In this document: positions 1-11,954 of the stretch, in pieces
Position numbering within the stretch: the stretch's first letter is position 1
Layout: each line of letters opens with the position of its first letter
Assembly (NCBI GenBank): GCA_023266695.1
Contig: JAHFPO010000003.1
Span: 1-32,103, forward strand
Direction of reading: 5' to 3'
DNA length: 32,103 nucleotides
Source of the DNA: Hyphomicrobiales bacterium
GTDB taxonomy: Bacteria; Pseudomonadota; Alphaproteobacteria; Rhizobiales; Xanthobacteraceae
Program-made: the position numbers and the translations under genes
Notes under the pieces: model-generated
The model's input: only the letters and a program-made list of their open reading frames with translations
Database searches by the model: none
What the model was told of the DNA's origin: nothing

Positions 1-252
1 GGACATGAGGTTACAGCCGTCCATGACCCTATTTGGACATATCGGGCTCGCCTCCCGCTACGGCCATCCCCCCATATGCGGCATACGGGGTGGCTTGTGC
101 GCGCTGGAACAGAAGCCTACGCTATCCGCAGTTGGTCGAGGCCGCTGCTACTCGCACCTCATAGCATTCTAGTGAGAACAGCTACCAAACCCAAGATGGT
201 GGAAGCGTCTTCATCGTTCCCGGATTTTCGGGATAAAACAGGAGGGTGTTGG

Positions 253-594
253 TTGATCGTAAAATCAACAATCTATGCACTATGTGGGTTCTGCTTCGTT
301 GTTGCTATAGGACCTCAATCTTTCGCGGCACCTCCCGACCGTCCCCCCGTTACCAGCTCTCCATACACCCAGCCCAAGCCCCCACCTGCATTTATCCCTC
401 CTATTTTTCAATTACCCCCTCAACAGAGAGAGAGAGAACTTCTCAGGCGCGATTGCCTTTCCTTGTGCCAAAATACATTTTCCGCATGCTGGCGGCTTTG
501 CTCTCGTCGCTATTCATATCCTTACAATTATGGCCGAGATAGTTGCATATCCCGATGTGGTTTATCATTTGATTCTTGCCGGAGTGAATGTTGA
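253..594 (+). CDS. Small secreted cysteine-rich hypothetical protein (TTG start proposed; the ORF can be extended upstream to 76)
   Basis: The ORF 76..594 contains an in-frame TTG at 253 preceded by GGAGGG at 241-246. From there the protein starts (M)IVKSTIYALCGFCFVVAIGPQSFA, which looks like a signal peptide. A Pro-rich linker and a C-terminal domain with 8 regularly spaced Cys follow. Confidence 0.6.
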   Translation: MIVKSTIYALCGFCFVVAIGPQSFAAPPDRPPVTSSPYTQPKPPPAFIPPIFQLPPQQRERELLRRDCLSLCQNTFSACWRLCSRRYSYPYNYGRDSCISRCGLSFDSCRSEC

Positions 595-1069
595 CTAGCT
601 CTTGCTCGTTAGGCGCTACTATTTTGATGTTTGTCGCCTTGTATCAGGGATGCACGGGACATATGTCCGTACATGATCAGTAATAGGCAGATGAGAGTCT
701 GGGTCTTTTGTTACCGCTCCAAGCCGAACCTCCGTTCGGTACCTTTCTAGCGCTCACCCCAACACCGACTGACCCAAACGAGCCATCGCCTGACGTACAT
801 CTCAAGCGGAGAGGCGCCTGACGCTGCCCTCCGCTCCTGCTCATAAAGCTGAGATGCTTTCTCGATGAAGTTCGCGACACTCTAGCTTGGCCACCGACAA
901 GCCCGCCGGAACCCCTTCGGACGCCGGATGTCTGCTTATGGCACAGAGCGGACGCTAAACTCTGAGGTAGCCCTTCAGTTCACGTTATTGCCGGGAGAAT
1001 GAATCAAATAATCAACTCCCCGCCGCCCCCGCCAAAAACTCCCCGCAGCCGGGCGCGAGCGACAGGCGC

Positions 1070-3221: not shown

Positions 3222-5114
<1,893 letters not shown>

Positions 5115-5203
5115 CTGCCCCTCTTACCCGTCGCGGCGCCCCAACCGCCGCCCCTTGGTACCATCCGGCGCCCGTTCCGCCATGACACATTAGGCGGAGA
5201 CCT

Positions 5204-6523
5204 TTAGGCAAAACCCTTGGTGGCGAGCGCCGCGGGCTTGGGCCCCCCGGTCGCCCAGTCGAGCAATTCCACCGTGTGGACGACCGGGATCGCGGTCGCG
5301 CTTGCGATCTGGACCATGCAGCCGATATTGCCGGTGGCGACGATCTCAGGATTGATCTTCTCGATATTCGCGGCCTTGCGGCGGGCGAGCAGGCTGGCGA
5401 TCGCGGGCTGCAGCATGTTGTAGGTGCCGGCCGAGCCGCAGCAGAGATGGCCCTCGGGCACCTCCTTCACGGTGAAGCCCGCCTTGGCGAGGAGCTCCCG
5501 CGGTTCGCGATCGATCTGCTGGCCGTGCTGCATGGAACAGGCCGAGTGATAGGCGACGACGCGGCCGCTCGCGCGCTTGGGCTTGGCGAGGCCGAGCTTC
5601 GCCATATATTCCGAGATGTCCTGGGCGAGCGCCGAGACCTTCGCCGCCTTTTCCGCATAGGCGGGATCGTTACGCAGCATATAGCCGTAATCCTTGACCG
5701 TGGTGCCGCAGCCCGACGCGGTGATCAGGATGGCGTCGAGGCCTTTGTCGATCTCGCGGGTCCAGGCGTCGATATTGTTGCGCACGAAGGAAAGCGCCTC
5801 CGCCTCGCGGCCCATGTGATGGGAGAGCGAGCCGCAGCAGGCTTCGCCTTCGGCGAGCACCACCGCGATGCCGTGGCGGGTGAGAAGGCGGATCGTGGCT
5901 TGGCGGATCGCCGGCGCCACCACCTGATCGACGCAGCCCGACATCAGCGCGACGCGGCCCTTGTTGCGGCTCTTGTTGCGGCCTTTGGCCGGAATCGTTC
6001 TCGATCCCAGGGGCGCCGCGCGCGGCGTCCACCAGGGCGCGAGGCGCAGCATCGCCGCGATGCGCTTCATTCCGAGCGCGGCGATGAGCGGCGCCAACGG
6101 CTTGGCGAGCGGCACCGCCGCGAGCGCGAGGCGGAAGCGCGCGGGATGAGGCATCAGCCAGGCGAGGAGCGCGCGCATGGCGCGGTCGAGGAACGGGCGG
6201 CGGAAGGTTTTCTCGATGTGCACGCGGCCGTGATCGACGAGATGCATATAGTGCACGCTCGAGGGGCAGGTCGTCATGCAGGCGAGGCAGGAGAGGCAGC
6301 GGTCGATGTGCTTCACCACTTCCGCCGTCGCCGGGCGGTCGTGCTCCAGCATCTCCTTGATCAGATAGATGCGCCCGCGCGGGCTATCGAGCTCGTCGCC
6401 GAGCAACACGTAGGTGGGGCAGGTGGCGGTGCAGAATCCGCAATGGACGCAGGAGCGCAGAATCTTGTCGGCCTCCGCGATATTCGGATCGGCGAGCTGG
6501 GCGAGGGTGAAGTTGGTTTGCAT
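5204..6523 (-). CDS. glcF: Glycolate oxidase iron-sulfur subunit GlcF
   Basis: Two 4Fe-4S motifs (CVHCGFCTATCPTY; CLSCLACMTTCPSS) and two cysteine-rich CCG domains (EACCGSLSHHMG; LCCGSAGTYN). Adjacent to glcE and glcD. Confidence 0.93.
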   Translation of the reverse strand: MQTNFTLAQLADPNIAEADKILRSCVHCGFCTATCPTYVLLGDELDSPRGRIYLIKEMLEHDRPATAEVVKHIDRCLSCLACMTTCPSSVHYMHLVDHGRVHIEKTFRRPFLDRAMRALLAWLMPHPARFRLALAAVPLAKPLAPLIAALGMKRIAAMLRLAPWWTPRAAPLGSRTIPAKGRNKSRNKGRVALMSGCVDQVVAPAIRQATIRLLTRHGIAVVLAEGEACCGSLSHHMGREAEALSFVRNNIDAWTREIDKGLDAILITASGCGTTVKDYGYMLRNDPAYAEKAAKVSALAQDISEYMAKLGLAKPKRASGRVVAYHSACSMQHGQQIDREPRELLAKAGFTVKEVPEGHLCCGSAGTYNMLQPAIASLLARRKAANIEKINPEIVATGNIGCMVQIASATAIPVVHTVELLDWATGGPKPAALATKGFA

Positions 6524-6563
6524 CAGTCGATCTTACTCGCTGCCGGTTTCGCAAACACATTTT

Positions 6564-6586
6564 CCCTCCCCCTGAAAGGGGGAGGG
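6564..6586. repeat. Perfect 10-bp inverted repeat (CCCTCCCCCT-GAA-AGGGGGAGGG) in the glcE-glcF intergenic region
   Basis: Read directly. Arms 6564-6573 and 6577-6586, 3-nt loop. Confidence 0.9.
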
Positions 6587-6598
6587 ATAGAGAGTGCA

Positions 6599-7816
6599 TC
6601 ACACCCCCGCCCACATCCGCCCCGGATTGAGAATGCCGCTCGGATCGAAGCTCTCCTTGACGCGCCGGGTGAGTGCCGCGAGCGCGTCGTCCTGCGGCTC
6701 GAAGGCGGCGGCGCTCGCCCGCACCGAGGCGTCGGCGCGGATGAGCAGCGCGTGACCGTTGCCGCCGAGCGCCGCCCGCACCGCGTTTTCCTCCGCGATC
6801 GCGGTCGGCATTTCGACCCACACGAGGCCGCCGGCCCAGTCATAGAACACTTCCGCGCCGGTGGCGGCGACGATCTTGCCGGCGACGGTCGCGCCCGCGG
6901 TCGCCGCGGTCGAGACGCGCCAGAGCGCGCGGAGCGACCCGTCGGCGAACGGAGCCGCGTCGCGCACCGCCCGCCACAAGCGGAGCGAATCTTCCCGGCC
7001 GAGCGCCGTGAGCCGGCCGAACGGGCGCATGAGTTTTTCCAGCTGTTTCCGGCGGTAGGCGATCGAGGCCGGAATGCCTTCGAGCCGAAGCGCGGTCACG
7101 CCGCGGCCGGCCTTGGCGAGCGCGGCCACGGCGGACTTCGCGGCGATGCGCGCGGGCAAATGCGCGGCGCCCGAGACGTCGCAGGAGGAGCCCATCGCCG
7201 CCGTCATTGCGGCATTGGCGCGGGCATCATCGAGGCCGAGCACAAGTACGGTCGTTACATCCTCGGCGCGCGGCAGCACCTTGACGGTGAGATCGGTCAT
7301 CACCGCGAGCGTGCCCCAGGAGCCGGCGACAAGCTTGGAGAGGTCGTAGCCGGTGACGTTCTTGACGACGCGGCCGCCCGACTTGAAGCGCTCGGCCCTC
7401 CCGGAGACGGCGTGAACGCCCAGCGTGTGATCGCGCGCGGCACCCGCCTTCGGCCGGCGCGGGCCGGAAAGATTGGCGGCGATCACGCCGCCGAGGGTGC
7501 CCCTCCCCGTCTCGCCGCCGAGAAGCGGCCCGCAATCCATCGGCTCGAAGGCGAGCTCCTGATTTTTGTCGGCGAGCAGGCGTTCGATCTCGGCGATCGG
7601 CGTCCCGGCCTTGGCCGACAGGATCAGTTCCTCGGGCTCGTAGAGGGTGACGCCGCTGATGCCGGAGAGATCGAGGGTGAGATCGGTCTGGGCGGCGCGG
7701 CCGATCAGGCGCTTGGAGCCCTGGCCGACGATTTCGAGAGTCTTCTCCTCGACCAGCGCCCAGGCGACGGCTTCGACCACATCGGCCTCGTCGCGGGGTT
7801 TGAGCGTATCGGCCAT
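6599..7816 (-). CDS. glcE: Glycolate oxidase FAD-binding subunit GlcE
   Basis: Starts MADTLKPRDEADVVEAVAWALVEEKTLEIVGQGSKR. FAD-binding motif GGVIAANLSGPRR..GAARDHTLG..VVKNVTGYDLSKL. The ATG at 7816 overlaps the glcD stop by one base. Confidence 0.92.
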   Translation of the reverse strand: MADTLKPRDEADVVEAVAWALVEEKTLEIVGQGSKRLIGRAAQTDLTLDLSGISGVTLYEPEELILSAKAGTPIAEIERLLADKNQELAFEPMDCGPLLGGETGRGTLGGVIAANLSGPRRPKAGAARDHTLGVHAVSGRAERFKSGGRVVKNVTGYDLSKLVAGSWGTLAVMTDLTVKVLPRAEDVTTVLVLGLDDARANAAMTAAMGSSCDVSGAAHLPARIAAKSAVAALAKAGRGVTALRLEGIPASIAYRRKQLEKLMRPFGRLTALGREDSLRLWRAVRDAAPFADGSLRALWRVSTAATAGATVAGKIVAATGAEVFYDWAGGLVWVEMPTAIAEENAVRAALGGNGHALLIRADASVRASAAAFEPQDDALAALTRRVKESFDPSGILNPGRMWAGV

Positions 7817-9306
7817 CAGAACCGCGGAATATCCGGGAACGGCAGCTTGCCGGCGCGCACGTGCATGCGGCCCAATTCGGCGCAGCGGTGGAGCGTCGGA
7901 AACACCTTGCCGGGATTCAACAGCCCCTTGTCGTCGAAGGCGCATTTCACCCGCTGCTGCTGATCGAGGTCCTCCTTGGAGAACATCGTCGGCATCAGAT
8001 CGCGCTTCTCCACGCCGACGCCGTGCTCGCCGGTGAGCACGCCGCCGACCTCGACGCAGCAGCGCAAAATATCGGCGCCGAACTTCTCCGCGCGCTCCAG
8101 CTCGTCGCCCTTGTTGGCATCGTAGAGAATGAGCGGATGCAGATTGCCGTCGCCGGCATGAAACACGTTGGCGACGCGCAAGTCATATTGCTGCGACAGC
8201 GCGCGGATGCGGGCGAGCACCTCGGGCAGCCGCGCGCGCGGAATGGTGCCGTCCATGCAGTAATAATCGGGCGAGATGCGGCCGACCGCCGGAAACGCCG
8301 CCTTGCGCCCGGCCCAGAACCTCAGCCGCTCTTCTTCCGAAGTCGAGGCGCGCAAGGTGGTCGAGCCGCTCTCCTTGGCGATCGCGCTCACGCGCGCGAG
8401 CAGGGAATCGACCTCGGCCTCCGGCCCGTCGAGCTCGACGATCAGGAGCGCCTCGACGTCGAGCGGATAGCCGGCATGGGCATAGGCCTCGGAGGCGTGG
8501 ATCGCGGGCTTGTCCATCATCTCCATGCCGCTCGGAATGATGCCGGCGGCGATGATCTTGGCGACGCAATCGCCCGCCGCTTCCGAGGTCGGAAAGCCGA
8601 CGAGGGCGGCGCGCGCGCCTTCGGCCTTCTTGAGGATGCGGACGGTGACCTCGGTGACGACGCCGAGCAATCCTTCCGAGCCGCAGACGAGCGCCAGCAA
8701 ATCGTAGCCGCCGCAGTCGAGATGCTTGCCGCCGATGCGGACGACCTCGCCGGTCATCAGCACCAGCTCGACGCCGAGCACGTTGTTGCTGGTCATGCCG
8801 TATTTCAGGCAATGCACGCCGCCGGAATTCTCGGCGACGTTGCCGCCGATGGTGCAGGCGATCTGCGAGGAGGGATCGGGGGCGTAGTAGAAGCCCGCCG
8901 CCTCGACTGCGTGGGTGACGCCGAGATTGGTGACGCCCGGCTGCGCCACCACCACGCGGTTGTCATAATCGATTTCGAGAATGCGGTTGAACTTGGCGAG
9001 CCCCAAGAGCACGCCGTCGGCCAAGGGCAGCGCGCCGCCCGACAATGAGGTGCCGGCGCCGCGCGGCACCACCTTCACCCCTTCCCGATGGCAGTAGCGC
9101 AGGATCTTCGAGACCTCATCGGTCGTCTGCGGCAGCACCACCACCATCGGGAGCTGGCGATAGGCGGTGAGGCCGTCGGACTCGTAGGGCCGCATCTCGG
9201 CCTCGGTTTCGATCACGCCCTCGCCCGGCACGATCGCACGCAGCGCCGCCACGATCGCGGCGCGGCGCGCGAGCACGGCCTCGTCGGCTGCCGGCATGGC
9301 GACCAT
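7816..9306 (-). CDS. glcD: Glycolate oxidase subunit GlcD (FAD-linked oxidase)
   Basis: FAD-binding motif (VVPRGAGTSLSGGALPLADGVLLGLAKFNRILEID) and C-terminal VFHAGDGNLHPLILYD and TGEHGVGVEKRD motifs. Confidence 0.95.
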   Translation of the reverse strand: MVAMPAADEAVLARRAAIVAALRAIVPGEGVIETEAEMRPYESDGLTAYRQLPMVVVLPQTTDEVSKILRYCHREGVKVVPRGAGTSLSGGALPLADGVLLGLAKFNRILEIDYDNRVVVAQPGVTNLGVTHAVEAAGFYYAPDPSSQIACTIGGNVAENSGGVHCLKYGMTSNNVLGVELVLMTGEVVRIGGKHLDCGGYDLLALVCGSEGLLGVVTEVTVRILKKAEGARAALVGFPTSEAAGDCVAKIIAAGIIPSGMEMMDKPAIHASEAYAHAGYPLDVEALLIVELDGPEAEVDSLLARVSAIAKESGSTTLRASTSEEERLRFWAGRKAAFPAVGRISPDYYCMDGTIPRARLPEVLARIRALSQQYDLRVANVFHAGDGNLHPLILYDANKGDELERAEKFGADILRCCVEVGGVLTGEHGVGVEKRDLMPTMFSKEDLDQQQRVKCAFDDKGLLNPGKVFPTLHRCAELGRMHVRAGKLPFPDIPRF

Positions 9307-9452: not shown

Positions 9453-10148
9453 TCAGAGGGGAGAGCGCTGCCCGGCGTTTCCGGTCTTGGGCTTGGCGGG
9501 GATGGCCGCGGAAGCGGGCCCCGCGGCCTTGGACGACATCGCCTGCTGGATGTACGAAATCGCCTGCAGGTGCAGCTTGCCGACCTTGTCGATATTGAAA
9601 TGGTTGATGTCGGCGGCCTTCGCGATATCGACGTTGTTCACGCTGCCGCGGTAGCCCGCCCCGCGCTCGACGTGAGCGCCCCAGCCGTTGTTCGACTGGT
9701 AGAAATTCACCACGCTGGCGACGTTGCCGGGCGCCGTGTGGGTCGCGACGGGATCGAAGGCGACGATGAGCCGAACCGGGACCTTCAATTCTTCCAGCCG
9801 GGCGGCCATCAAGATCGCGGTATCGGCCCCGATCGAATGACCCACGATGATGATCGGGTGCTTGTGAGCGCCGGCCTTGTATTTCTCGGCGACGAAATCG
9901 GCCAAGGCGTAATATTCCAGATGAGAATAGACCGCGGCCTTGATGCCCTTTTTATTGAGCTTGTCGGTGAGATCGTCCATCCCGAGCGAAAAAACGTCGA
10001 GCCAGCCGCGCATCAGATAGACCTGATTGACGCGGACCGGATAGCTGGTGGGGCTCTGGGTCTTGGACGCGTGCTGCGCCTCGGCTCCCGCCATCGACAG
10101 GGTGAGCGCGACCGCCAGCAATCCAACGACCCGCAGGAACCGCATCAT
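9453..10148 (-). CDS. Secreted alpha/beta-hydrolase-like protein, paralog 1 of a tandem triplet
   Basis: Signal peptide; GHSIGA nucleophile elbow; FDP and DINHFNID motifs shared with the two neighbouring paralogs. Confidence 0.8.
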   Translation of the reverse strand: MMRFLRVVGLLAVALTLSMAGAEAQHASKTQSPTSYPVRVNQVYLMRGWLDVFSLGMDDLTDKLNKKGIKAAVYSHLEYYALADFVAEKYKAGAHKHPIIIVGHSIGADTAILMAARLEELKVPVRLIVAFDPVATHTAPGNVASVVNFYQSNNGWGAHVERGAGYRGSVNNVDIAKAADINHFNIDKVGKLHLQAISYIQQAMSSKAAGPASAAIPAKPKTGNAGQRSPL

Positions 10149-10199
10149 GGTCGATCCGTTTTCCGTTGCGCGAGAATATTTCCGTCCGGTGCGGCGCGA

Positions 10200-11003
10200 T
10201 CAAAGCGGTGGGCGTTTCTCCGGCCCTGAAGCGGGCGCCCGCGAGGATGCCGGCGCGGGCTCCTTGACGTCCGATGAGGTCGAAGGCGCGGGCTGCGGGG
10301 CCGCCGCCTGCCTGCTGCCGCCGCCGAGGGACTGGATGTAGCCGATCGACTGCATGTGCAGTTTGTTCGACTTGTCGATGCTGGCGTGGCCGAGGTCGCT
10401 GTCCCTCGCCAGATCGATGTTGCCGAGCGAGCCACGGAACCCGGGCCCGGCCACGACCCGCGCGCCCCAGCCGTTGTTCGATTGATAGAAATTCACCAGG
10501 CGCGATACGTTTGCCGGCGCGTTTTCCACGACGGTCGGATCGTAAGTGATGACCAGCGGCACGGGGACCTTGAGCTCGCCGAGTCTGGCGGCCATTTGCA
10601 CGGCGGCATTGGCGCCGAGCGAGTGGCCGATGATGACCACCCGTTCCCCGCGGCCGGTCCGGTAGCGGGCGGCGATGGCATCGGCAAGCGCGTAGTATTC
10701 CATGTGACCATGGACGCTCGCCCGAATTCCCCGGCGGTTGAGCTTGGCGGTGAGGTCGTCCATGCCGGTCGAGAACACGTCCAGCCAGCCGCGCAGCAGA
10801 TAGACGTGCGTGCCGCCTGTGGGCGTCATGGTCGGAGCGGACTTCGCCTCCGATTTGGGCGCCCGCTTGAACGCCGTTTTGGGCGCCGGCTTGGGCTCCG
10901 CCATTACTTGCCTCTGTGCCTCAGCCGGCGGGCTTCCGACCGCCAGGGTCGATGCCGCGAACGCCAAGCCCAGGAATCCGAAAAATCGTGCCAACCGCAT
11001 CAT
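10200..11003 (-). CDS. Secreted alpha/beta-hydrolase-like protein, paralog 2 of a tandem triplet
   Basis: THVYLLRGWLDVFSTGMDDLTAKLNRRGIRASVHGHMEYYALADAIAARYRTGRGERVVIIGHSLGANAA; near-identical blocks to paralogs 1 and 3. Confidence 0.82.
   Translation of the reverse strand: MMRLARFFGFLGLAFAASTLAVGSPPAEAQRQVMAEPKPAPKTAFKRAPKSEAKSAPTMTPTGGTHVYLLRGWLDVFSTGMDDLTAKLNRRGIRASVHGHMEYYALADAIAARYRTGRGERVVIIGHSLGANAAVQMAARLGELKVPVPLVITYDPTVVENAPANVSRLVNFYQSNNGWGARVVAGPGFRGSLGNIDLARDSDLGHASIDKSNKLHMQSIGYIQSLGGGSRQAAAPQPAPSTSSDVKEPAPASSRAPASGPEKRPPL
10315..10383. repeat. 69-bp perfect direct repeat, copy A (inside hydrolase paralog 2)
   Basis: CTGCCGCCGCCGAGGGACTGGATGTAGCCGATCGACTGCATGTGCAGTTTGTTCGACTTGTCGATGCTG, identical to 11302-11370. 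Confidence 0.88.
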
Positions 11004-11195
11004 GATCGAACCGTTGCGTCGGGAATGTTTGCCGTCCCGGTCGAGACTGCGAGCCGGGATCGGGGAAGCCCCGCCCGTGGCTTTCTTAGCATGCCGCGCC
11101 GGAACAGCTAGCCCCGTGGAACTGCGGCATAATCTTTCGACCGAAACTGTGGCGAATAAGTCACGGCCGGGCGGTCCGAGCGCGGCACGGCACGA

Positions 11196-11954
11196 TCAAA
11201 GCGGAGGCCGGCTCGCAGCCGATGATGCCGGCGCCTGCGAGGTTACCGGTGCCGCCCCGTCCTCGCCCGACGACGCCGCGGGCTTCGACTCCGCAGCCGG
11301 CCTGCCGCCGCCGAGGGACTGGATGTAGCCGATCGACTGCATGTGCAGTTTGTTCGACTTGTCGATGCTGACGTGGCCGAGGTCGCTATCCCTTGCCAGA
11401 TCGATATTGCTCAACGACCCTTGAAAACCGGACCCCGGCACCACGCGCGCGCCCCAACCGTTGTTCGACTGATAGAAATTCACCAGGCGGGAAACGTTCC
11501 GCGGTACCGATATGGTCACGGTCGGATCGTAAGTGATCACCAGCGGCACATGGATCTTGTGCTGGCCGAGTAGCGCGGCCATCCGTACCGCATCGTTGGC
11601 GCCGAGCGAGTGACCGACGATGATGACCCGTTCCCCGCGACCGGCCCGATGGCGGGCGGCGATCGCTTGAACGAGGCCGTAGTGTTCCGTGTGATTATAG
11701 ACGCTCGCCCGAATGCCGCGGCGGTTGAGCTTTTCGGCGAGGTCATCCATTCCGGTCGAAAACACGTTGAACAAGCCGCGCAGCAGATAGACGTGGGTGG
11801 CGCCCGCGCGCGGCTCGTTGGATGAGGACTTGGCGGACGTCTTGGCCGCTGCTGGCGCTTGGGTCTGTGCCACCGCCTGGAGATTTCCTCCCGCCAGGAA
11901 CAACGCCGCGCACGCAAAGCTCAAGGACCGGGAAATTCGCAGAAACCGCATCAT
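11196..11954 (-). CDS. Secreted alpha/beta-hydrolase-like protein, paralog 3 of a tandem triplet
   Basis: THVYLLRGLFNVFSTGMDDLAEKLNRRGIRASVYNHTEHYGLVQAIAARHRAGRGERVIIVGHSLGANDAVRMA; signal peptide. Confidence 0.82.
   Translation of the reverse strand: MMRFLRISRSLSFACAALFLAGGNLQAVAQTQAPAAAKTSAKSSSNEPRAGATHVYLLRGLFNVFSTGMDDLAEKLNRRGIRASVYNHTEHYGLVQAIAARHRAGRGERVIIVGHSLGANDAVRMAALLGQHKIHVPLVITYDPTVTISVPRNVSRLVNFYQSNNGWGARVVPGSGFQGSLSNIDLARDSDLGHVSIDKSNKLHMQSIGYIQSLGGGRPAAESKPAASSGEDGAAPVTSQAPASSAASRPPL
11302..11370. repeat. 69-bp perfect direct repeat, copy B (inside hydrolase paralog 3)
   Basis: Identical to 10315-10383. Similarity continues with few mismatches past the end. Confidence 0.88.

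Follow-up and report, generated by a model that had tools for sequence, protein, structure and literature searches.

The alpha-hairpinins of plants are helix-loop-helix defence peptides (PMC11591084; PMC7191063). Their cores have either four cysteines (4C, CX3C-X4-20-CX3C) or six (6C, CX3CX3CX4-20CX3CX3C) (PMC11591084, Table 1), and sequences with at least three extra cysteines are dropped during curation unless these form another such motif (PMC11591084). The small Tim chaperones of mitochondria, with their twin CX3C motifs, are likewise helical hairpins closed by CX3C pairs. Diversity-generating retroelements (DGRs) pair a reverse transcriptase (RT) with a neighbouring exported gene that varies on a fixed scaffold. 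RTs of the UG4 class adjoin fimbrial genes in 66% of cases (PMC8934634). That fimbrial association is published; the variability of the RT 3' neighbour and a breakpoint near the conserved RW codons were seen here, and neither is mentioned in the portions of the UG4 literature examined.

The window, by which we mean the whole 32,103-nucleotide stretch of DNA analysed (contig JAHFPO010000003.1 of a Hyphomicrobiales bacterium, assembly GCA_023266695.1), carries an open reading frame (ORF) at 253-594 on the forward strand, which an initial annotation had described as a small secreted protein with eight regularly spaced cysteines. The ORF is real in translation and encodes 113 residues, LIVKSTIYALCGFCFVVAIGPQSFA/APPDRPPV...RRD-CLSLCQNTFSACWRLCSRRYSYPYNYGRDSCISRCGLSFDSCRSEC, the final one being a cysteine. 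It starts with a TTG at 253, 6 nt behind the ribosome-binding site GGAGGG (241-246, forward strand), and this site is kept in a second copy of the gene on another contig of the same genome, C77, where it precedes an ATG start. A longer ORF from 76 was ruled out, because the two copies align from the 253 start and its ribosome-binding site. The signal peptide MIVKSTIYALCGFCFVVAIGPQSFA (253-327, forward strand) is hydrophobic and of Sec type, with an AxA-like cleavage site that was judged by eye in both copies, and its first codons are conserved between them (codons 2-12, pN 0.08, pS 0.35). The product is probably exported, as had been proposed; a lipoprotein was ruled out, since no lipobox was seen by eye. 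The leader is followed on the same strand by a proline-rich linker (328-453), also noted previously and diverged between the copies, by a 46-residue cysteine domain (454-591), and by the stop codon (592-594), which comes immediately after the last cysteine in both copies. The charges of the two proteins, +3 and +1, are not strongly antimicrobial. The ORF has a GC3 of 0.39, and the cassette has a GC content of 0.53 in a neighbourhood of 66% GC; being AT-rich for the host genome (0.53 vs 0.66), the cassette is suggested to be of foreign origin. Elsewhere in the window, ordinary metabolic neighbours occupy 3222-9306 (malate synthase, then FAD-oxidase and Fe-S genes that look like those of a glycolate oxidase set), and three consecutive ORFs on the reverse strand (9453-11954) show weak alpha/beta-hydrolase matches, of which only Lipase_3, for the first ORF, lies above curated cut-offs.

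The cysteine spacing, C-x3-C-x6-C-x3-C-x14-C-x3-C-x6-C-x3-C, is exactly the 3-6-3-14-3-6-3 first reported. At the DNA level, the window has a single instance of this pattern and 0/100 shuffles have any, and a second exact match within the genome lies on C77, in the paralogue. That paralogue, the one partner with which conservation could be assessed in a fragmented genome (231 contigs, 81% complete), is 34% identical overall, mostly in leader and linker, and has the same spacing with all eight cysteines in register, so that the proposed check on cysteine retention in homologues returned 8/8 in the sole homologue. Both cassette loci lie at contig ends. Outside the cysteines, identity within the domain falls to 2/38 (only a Q and a D), which is chance level against a shuffle mean of 2.7. 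Coincidence of eight cysteine columns would be expected with a probability of about 4e-9 given both compositions, or about 1e-7 with the end cysteine fixed. Four of the eight shared cysteine codons differ synonymously, which argues that selection acted on the protein. A full cysteine match with a chance-level remainder in two ORFs argues strongly for a real protein whose cysteine framework is what selection kept; judged from these two sequences, protein-level purifying selection within the domain is confined to the cysteines.

The domain had been taken for an exact internal duplication, and this holds for the spacing but not for the sequence. Of 12 non-cysteine residues, the two halves share 2 in one copy and 1 in the other, a level also reached by shuffles, and a true internal sequence duplication is therefore not supported. 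The palindromic 3-6-3 makes the layout mirror-symmetric as well, with all cysteine pairs summing to the same position, which is what one antiparallel hairpin requires. On a helical wheel, the four cysteines of each half (positions 0, 4, 11 and 15) fall within 60 degrees, on one face. AlphaFold, working in both cases from an alignment of two sequences, predicted helix 13-34, a loop and helix 41-61 for the paralogue domain (pLDDT about 93-95), and the same topology with modest, lower confidence for the window protein (helix 56-85, loop, helix 92-112). The models thus point to a single long helical hairpin with four cysteines per helix; the hairpin of the initial annotation survives, while its two tandem hairpins were rejected. 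Four nested rungs, C1-C8, C2-C7, C3-C6 and C4-C5, are suggested by the mirror symmetry of the spacing rather than by model coordinates. Fold searches brought up nothing more specific than generic hairpins, Rop for instance, and no match had E < 1.

Compared with the alpha-hairpinins, the central pair of CX3C motifs fits the 4C core with n = 14 and each half fits it with n = 6, the four further cysteines not making a 6C core. The predicted helix-loop-helix, confident for the paralogue domain and less so for the window protein, agrees with the plant architecture, and the likeness would extend to export, to paired CX3C motifs stapling two helices, and to non-cysteine residues that are free to vary. 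In contrast to the plant peptides, the protein is bacterial, carries eight cysteines arranged 3-6-3 / 14 / 3-6-3 (the 6C core adds its CX3C with x3, not x6), would have four rungs instead of two or three, and shows no sequence relation to them in Pfam, NCBIfam or PDB. It is best read as a hairpin built like an enlarged alpha-hairpinin, a likeness of architecture. The resemblance to small Tim chaperones is one of spacing only, as had been stated from the outset: these have four cysteines, reside in another compartment and show no sequence relation, and neither protein matched any Pfam family, small Tim included, at the E limits given below.

Searches for a named family, none of which had been recognised before, gave no Pfam match for the window protein (E up to 1) or the paralogue (E up to 5), and no match to the cysteine protein in NCBIfam, PDB or other family libraries. 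A protein search in 60 relatives yielded chance matches only, the upstream DNA was found in its own genome only among 300 family genomes, and the 8-Cys DNA pattern retrieved from 399 family genomes the two own copies and TGC repeats only. A profile built on the cysteine protein found nothing in genome contigs or viral contigs, pattern matches in viral contigs were repeats, and the plasmids and phages searched held no homologue. The pattern followed by a stop codon occurred in 29 genome contigs, as cysteine-repeat or out-of-frame artefacts with one exception. In that exception, L273 around position 7467 (UBA1177; UBP6 genome), the 8-Cys spacing recurs inside a larger protein, probably by chance. 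The best reading is that the cysteine protein is an orphan within the collections searched, with no homologue beyond its own genome.

The DNA of the two copies forms a mosaic. Sliding identity is 67-97% at 31-210 (0.87-0.97 at 61-210) and 62% at 211-240, stands at 80-83% where the leader begins (first codons, 241-300), drops to 30-53% over 301-600 and 37-74% over the non-coding 601-780, recovers to 80-97% at 781-900, and is about 40% (0.40-0.42) beyond. In all, roughly 180 bp of upstream DNA and the leader codons are for the most part 80-97% identical. Within the upstream block common to both copies (24-252, forward strand), the longest uninterrupted exact match measures 33 bp and starts at 146; the block yielded neither a structured RNA (fold z -0.1) nor an Rfam match. 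The downstream block is the decayed 3' tail of an RT (774-910, reverse strand), convergent with the ORF and homologous to the second copy from about 780. Identity is lost in the window at a W codon (about 780) that corresponds to the RW codons of UG4 RTs. In C77 the reading frame of the tail stays open over about 84 residues, and that of the window copy is frameshifted; an intact catalytic domain is absent from both copies, of which the C-terminal 36-84 residues remain. The C77 tail matches Salmonella plasmid RTs, among which the one with the best coverage reaches E = 2.8e-136 against RT_UG4, and tblastn with the UG4 protein of G108, a genome of the host's own family, gave 5e-24 for C77 and 2e-8 for the window; by these matches the remnant is assignable to the UG4 class. 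Since neither copy has an intact RT, any action of it would lie in the past. Both cassettes end in short intergenic DNA with GGACAT/ATGTCCGC words (window 901-990 and L006:6475-6600), stretches which we take to resemble dispersed repeats of related bacteria.

Silent sites within the cysteine domain are saturated as well, so the contrast between flanks and domain is beyond the reach of amino-acid selection alone. The alternatives are a replaced middle or homogenised flanks. Of these, exchange of a cassette between the conserved flanks fits the mosaic best. We lean, by a modest degree of belief, towards an exported, cysteine-stapled hairpin that acts as a recognition module and whose 3' coding part was replaced or diversified between the upstream/leader block and the UG4 RT tail. 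Such a protein would consist of a leader, a disordered proline-rich spacer and a C-terminal antiparallel hairpin, its cysteines oxidised by DsbA-type enzymes of the host, in whose genome DsbA-family genes are present. The rungs would free the fold from the remaining residues, so that the outer surface could vary, and the changing surface of the domain suggests recognition of something variable. The most likely role would be a surface-exposed or secreted binder of adhesin-like kind, an inhibitor or an antagonist peptide. The RT may have had a part in the exchange.

The main rival, which we consider improbable though worth weighing, is that the copies are old duplicates that diverged everywhere, gene conversion having reset the upstream/leader and RT-tail blocks and the cysteines being the sole structural requirement. 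Neither exchange machinery nor a diversifying function would then be needed, and the strong divergence of synonymous sites and of the non-coding 601-780 fits age and not amino-acid selection; with a longest exact common run of just 33 bp, any conversion would itself be old. However, this reading requires conversion to have acted on both sides and to have stopped two times, and an upstream block without other features to have been conserved, and it turns similar breakpoints in Salmonella UG4 loci into coincidence.

Those breakpoints belong to a wider pattern. In plasmid records, the ORF abutting the 3' end of a UG4 RT is usually exported and adhesin-like (signal peptides judged by eye), on the same strand in fimbrial operons and convergent in Salmonella inverse-autotransporter loci and in Photobacterium. 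Mostly unannotated or 'hypothetical', usually exported ORFs abut the RT 3' end at L187, L188, L189, L193, L194, L290, L292, L294, L296, L297 and L302, the last (G932) being a whole-genome example from outside the plasmid collection that fits the pattern; at L290 and L295 the annotated start of the neighbour shows no signal peptide. Twelve such neighbours are mutually unrelated although their RTs are 46-98% identical, and this holds also where the RTs reach 87-98%, the sole similarity being 30% over 67 residues between loci with 98% identical RTs, and fimbrial-locus neighbours differ completely even where RTs are 93% identical (L292 and L294). In Salmonella plasmids, UG4 RTs and inverse-autotransporter genes are convergent at L155:4200-10210, L287:6001-12738, L288:6001-11646 and L156:4710-10201; among these, the RTs are 82-97% and the autotransporter 5' parts 72-86% identical, with the 3' parts largely unrelated. 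On NZ_CP019190.1 the same inverse autotransporter (identical protein accession) occurs twice (98632-104349 and 137427-143144); one copy adjoins a full UG4 RT, the other a truncated RT tail, a layout like that of the two cysteine cassettes.

From this pattern it could be argued that the UG4 RT itself diversified or exchanged the adjoining exported gene, as a retroelement unlike DGRs, and that the two loci are relics; we hold this to be more doubtful than old duplication. In its favour, Salmonella RTs are 97% identical up to codon 330, after which the 3' part of the autotransporter gene (about 3.1 kb) shows no detectable similarity, and the 5' part is 86% identical again. Seven pairs of closely related RTs lose their DNA identity, down to background, at the conserved RW codons or a few tens of nucleotides after them, and the abutting genes look exported in most cases and are unrelated across the 12 loci. 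Against it, no template repeat was found for either cysteine ORF in its contig, nor for any tested UG4-adjacent gene, and three UG4 loci have no exported 3' neighbour: G108, which holds an intact UG4 RT, and the weaker UG4-like genomes G842 and G961. Even where no RT is present, tip adhesins and autotransporter passengers vary, and the tails of RTs diverge in any case beyond the last conserved motif, for which reasons the neighbour pattern is a lead and not a demonstration. A DGR was rejected for want of a template; moreover, UG4 is not a DGR-class RT, and the core differs everywhere rather than at adenines only. The cysteine locus resembles the UG4-adhesin loci in having an exported product, a variable part that abuts the RT 3' end and a boundary near the same RT motif, but those loci encode large adhesins beside mostly intact RTs, whereas here 113 residues accompany a remnant. 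It seems unlikely, if conceivable, that a UG4 retroelement generally exchanges or diversifies the part of an exported gene against its 3' end with a boundary near a fixed RT codon, and a system that spans fimbrial tip adhesins, inverse-autotransporter passengers and an alphaproteobacterial cysteine-stapled hairpin is put forward equally tentatively.

A metal- or haem-binding protein, whose clustered cysteines would hold a cofactor instead of disulfides, is very improbable: other proteins can bind metals through CX3C pairs, but this one is probably exported, has no CXXC and no conserved His or Met (outside the cysteines, only the Q and the D), and the mirror register of its eight cysteines across two facing, predicted helices suits cystine rungs.

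Taken as a recognition module with an exchanged 3' part, the pair of copies, in which only eight stapling cysteines are kept, would show, in nature, a fold that has become independent of its sequence. The layout is comparable to that of plant hairpin defence peptides and may offer a template for stable binders. The mosaic with its conserved flanks, in turn, would give a concrete handle on the UG4 RTs.
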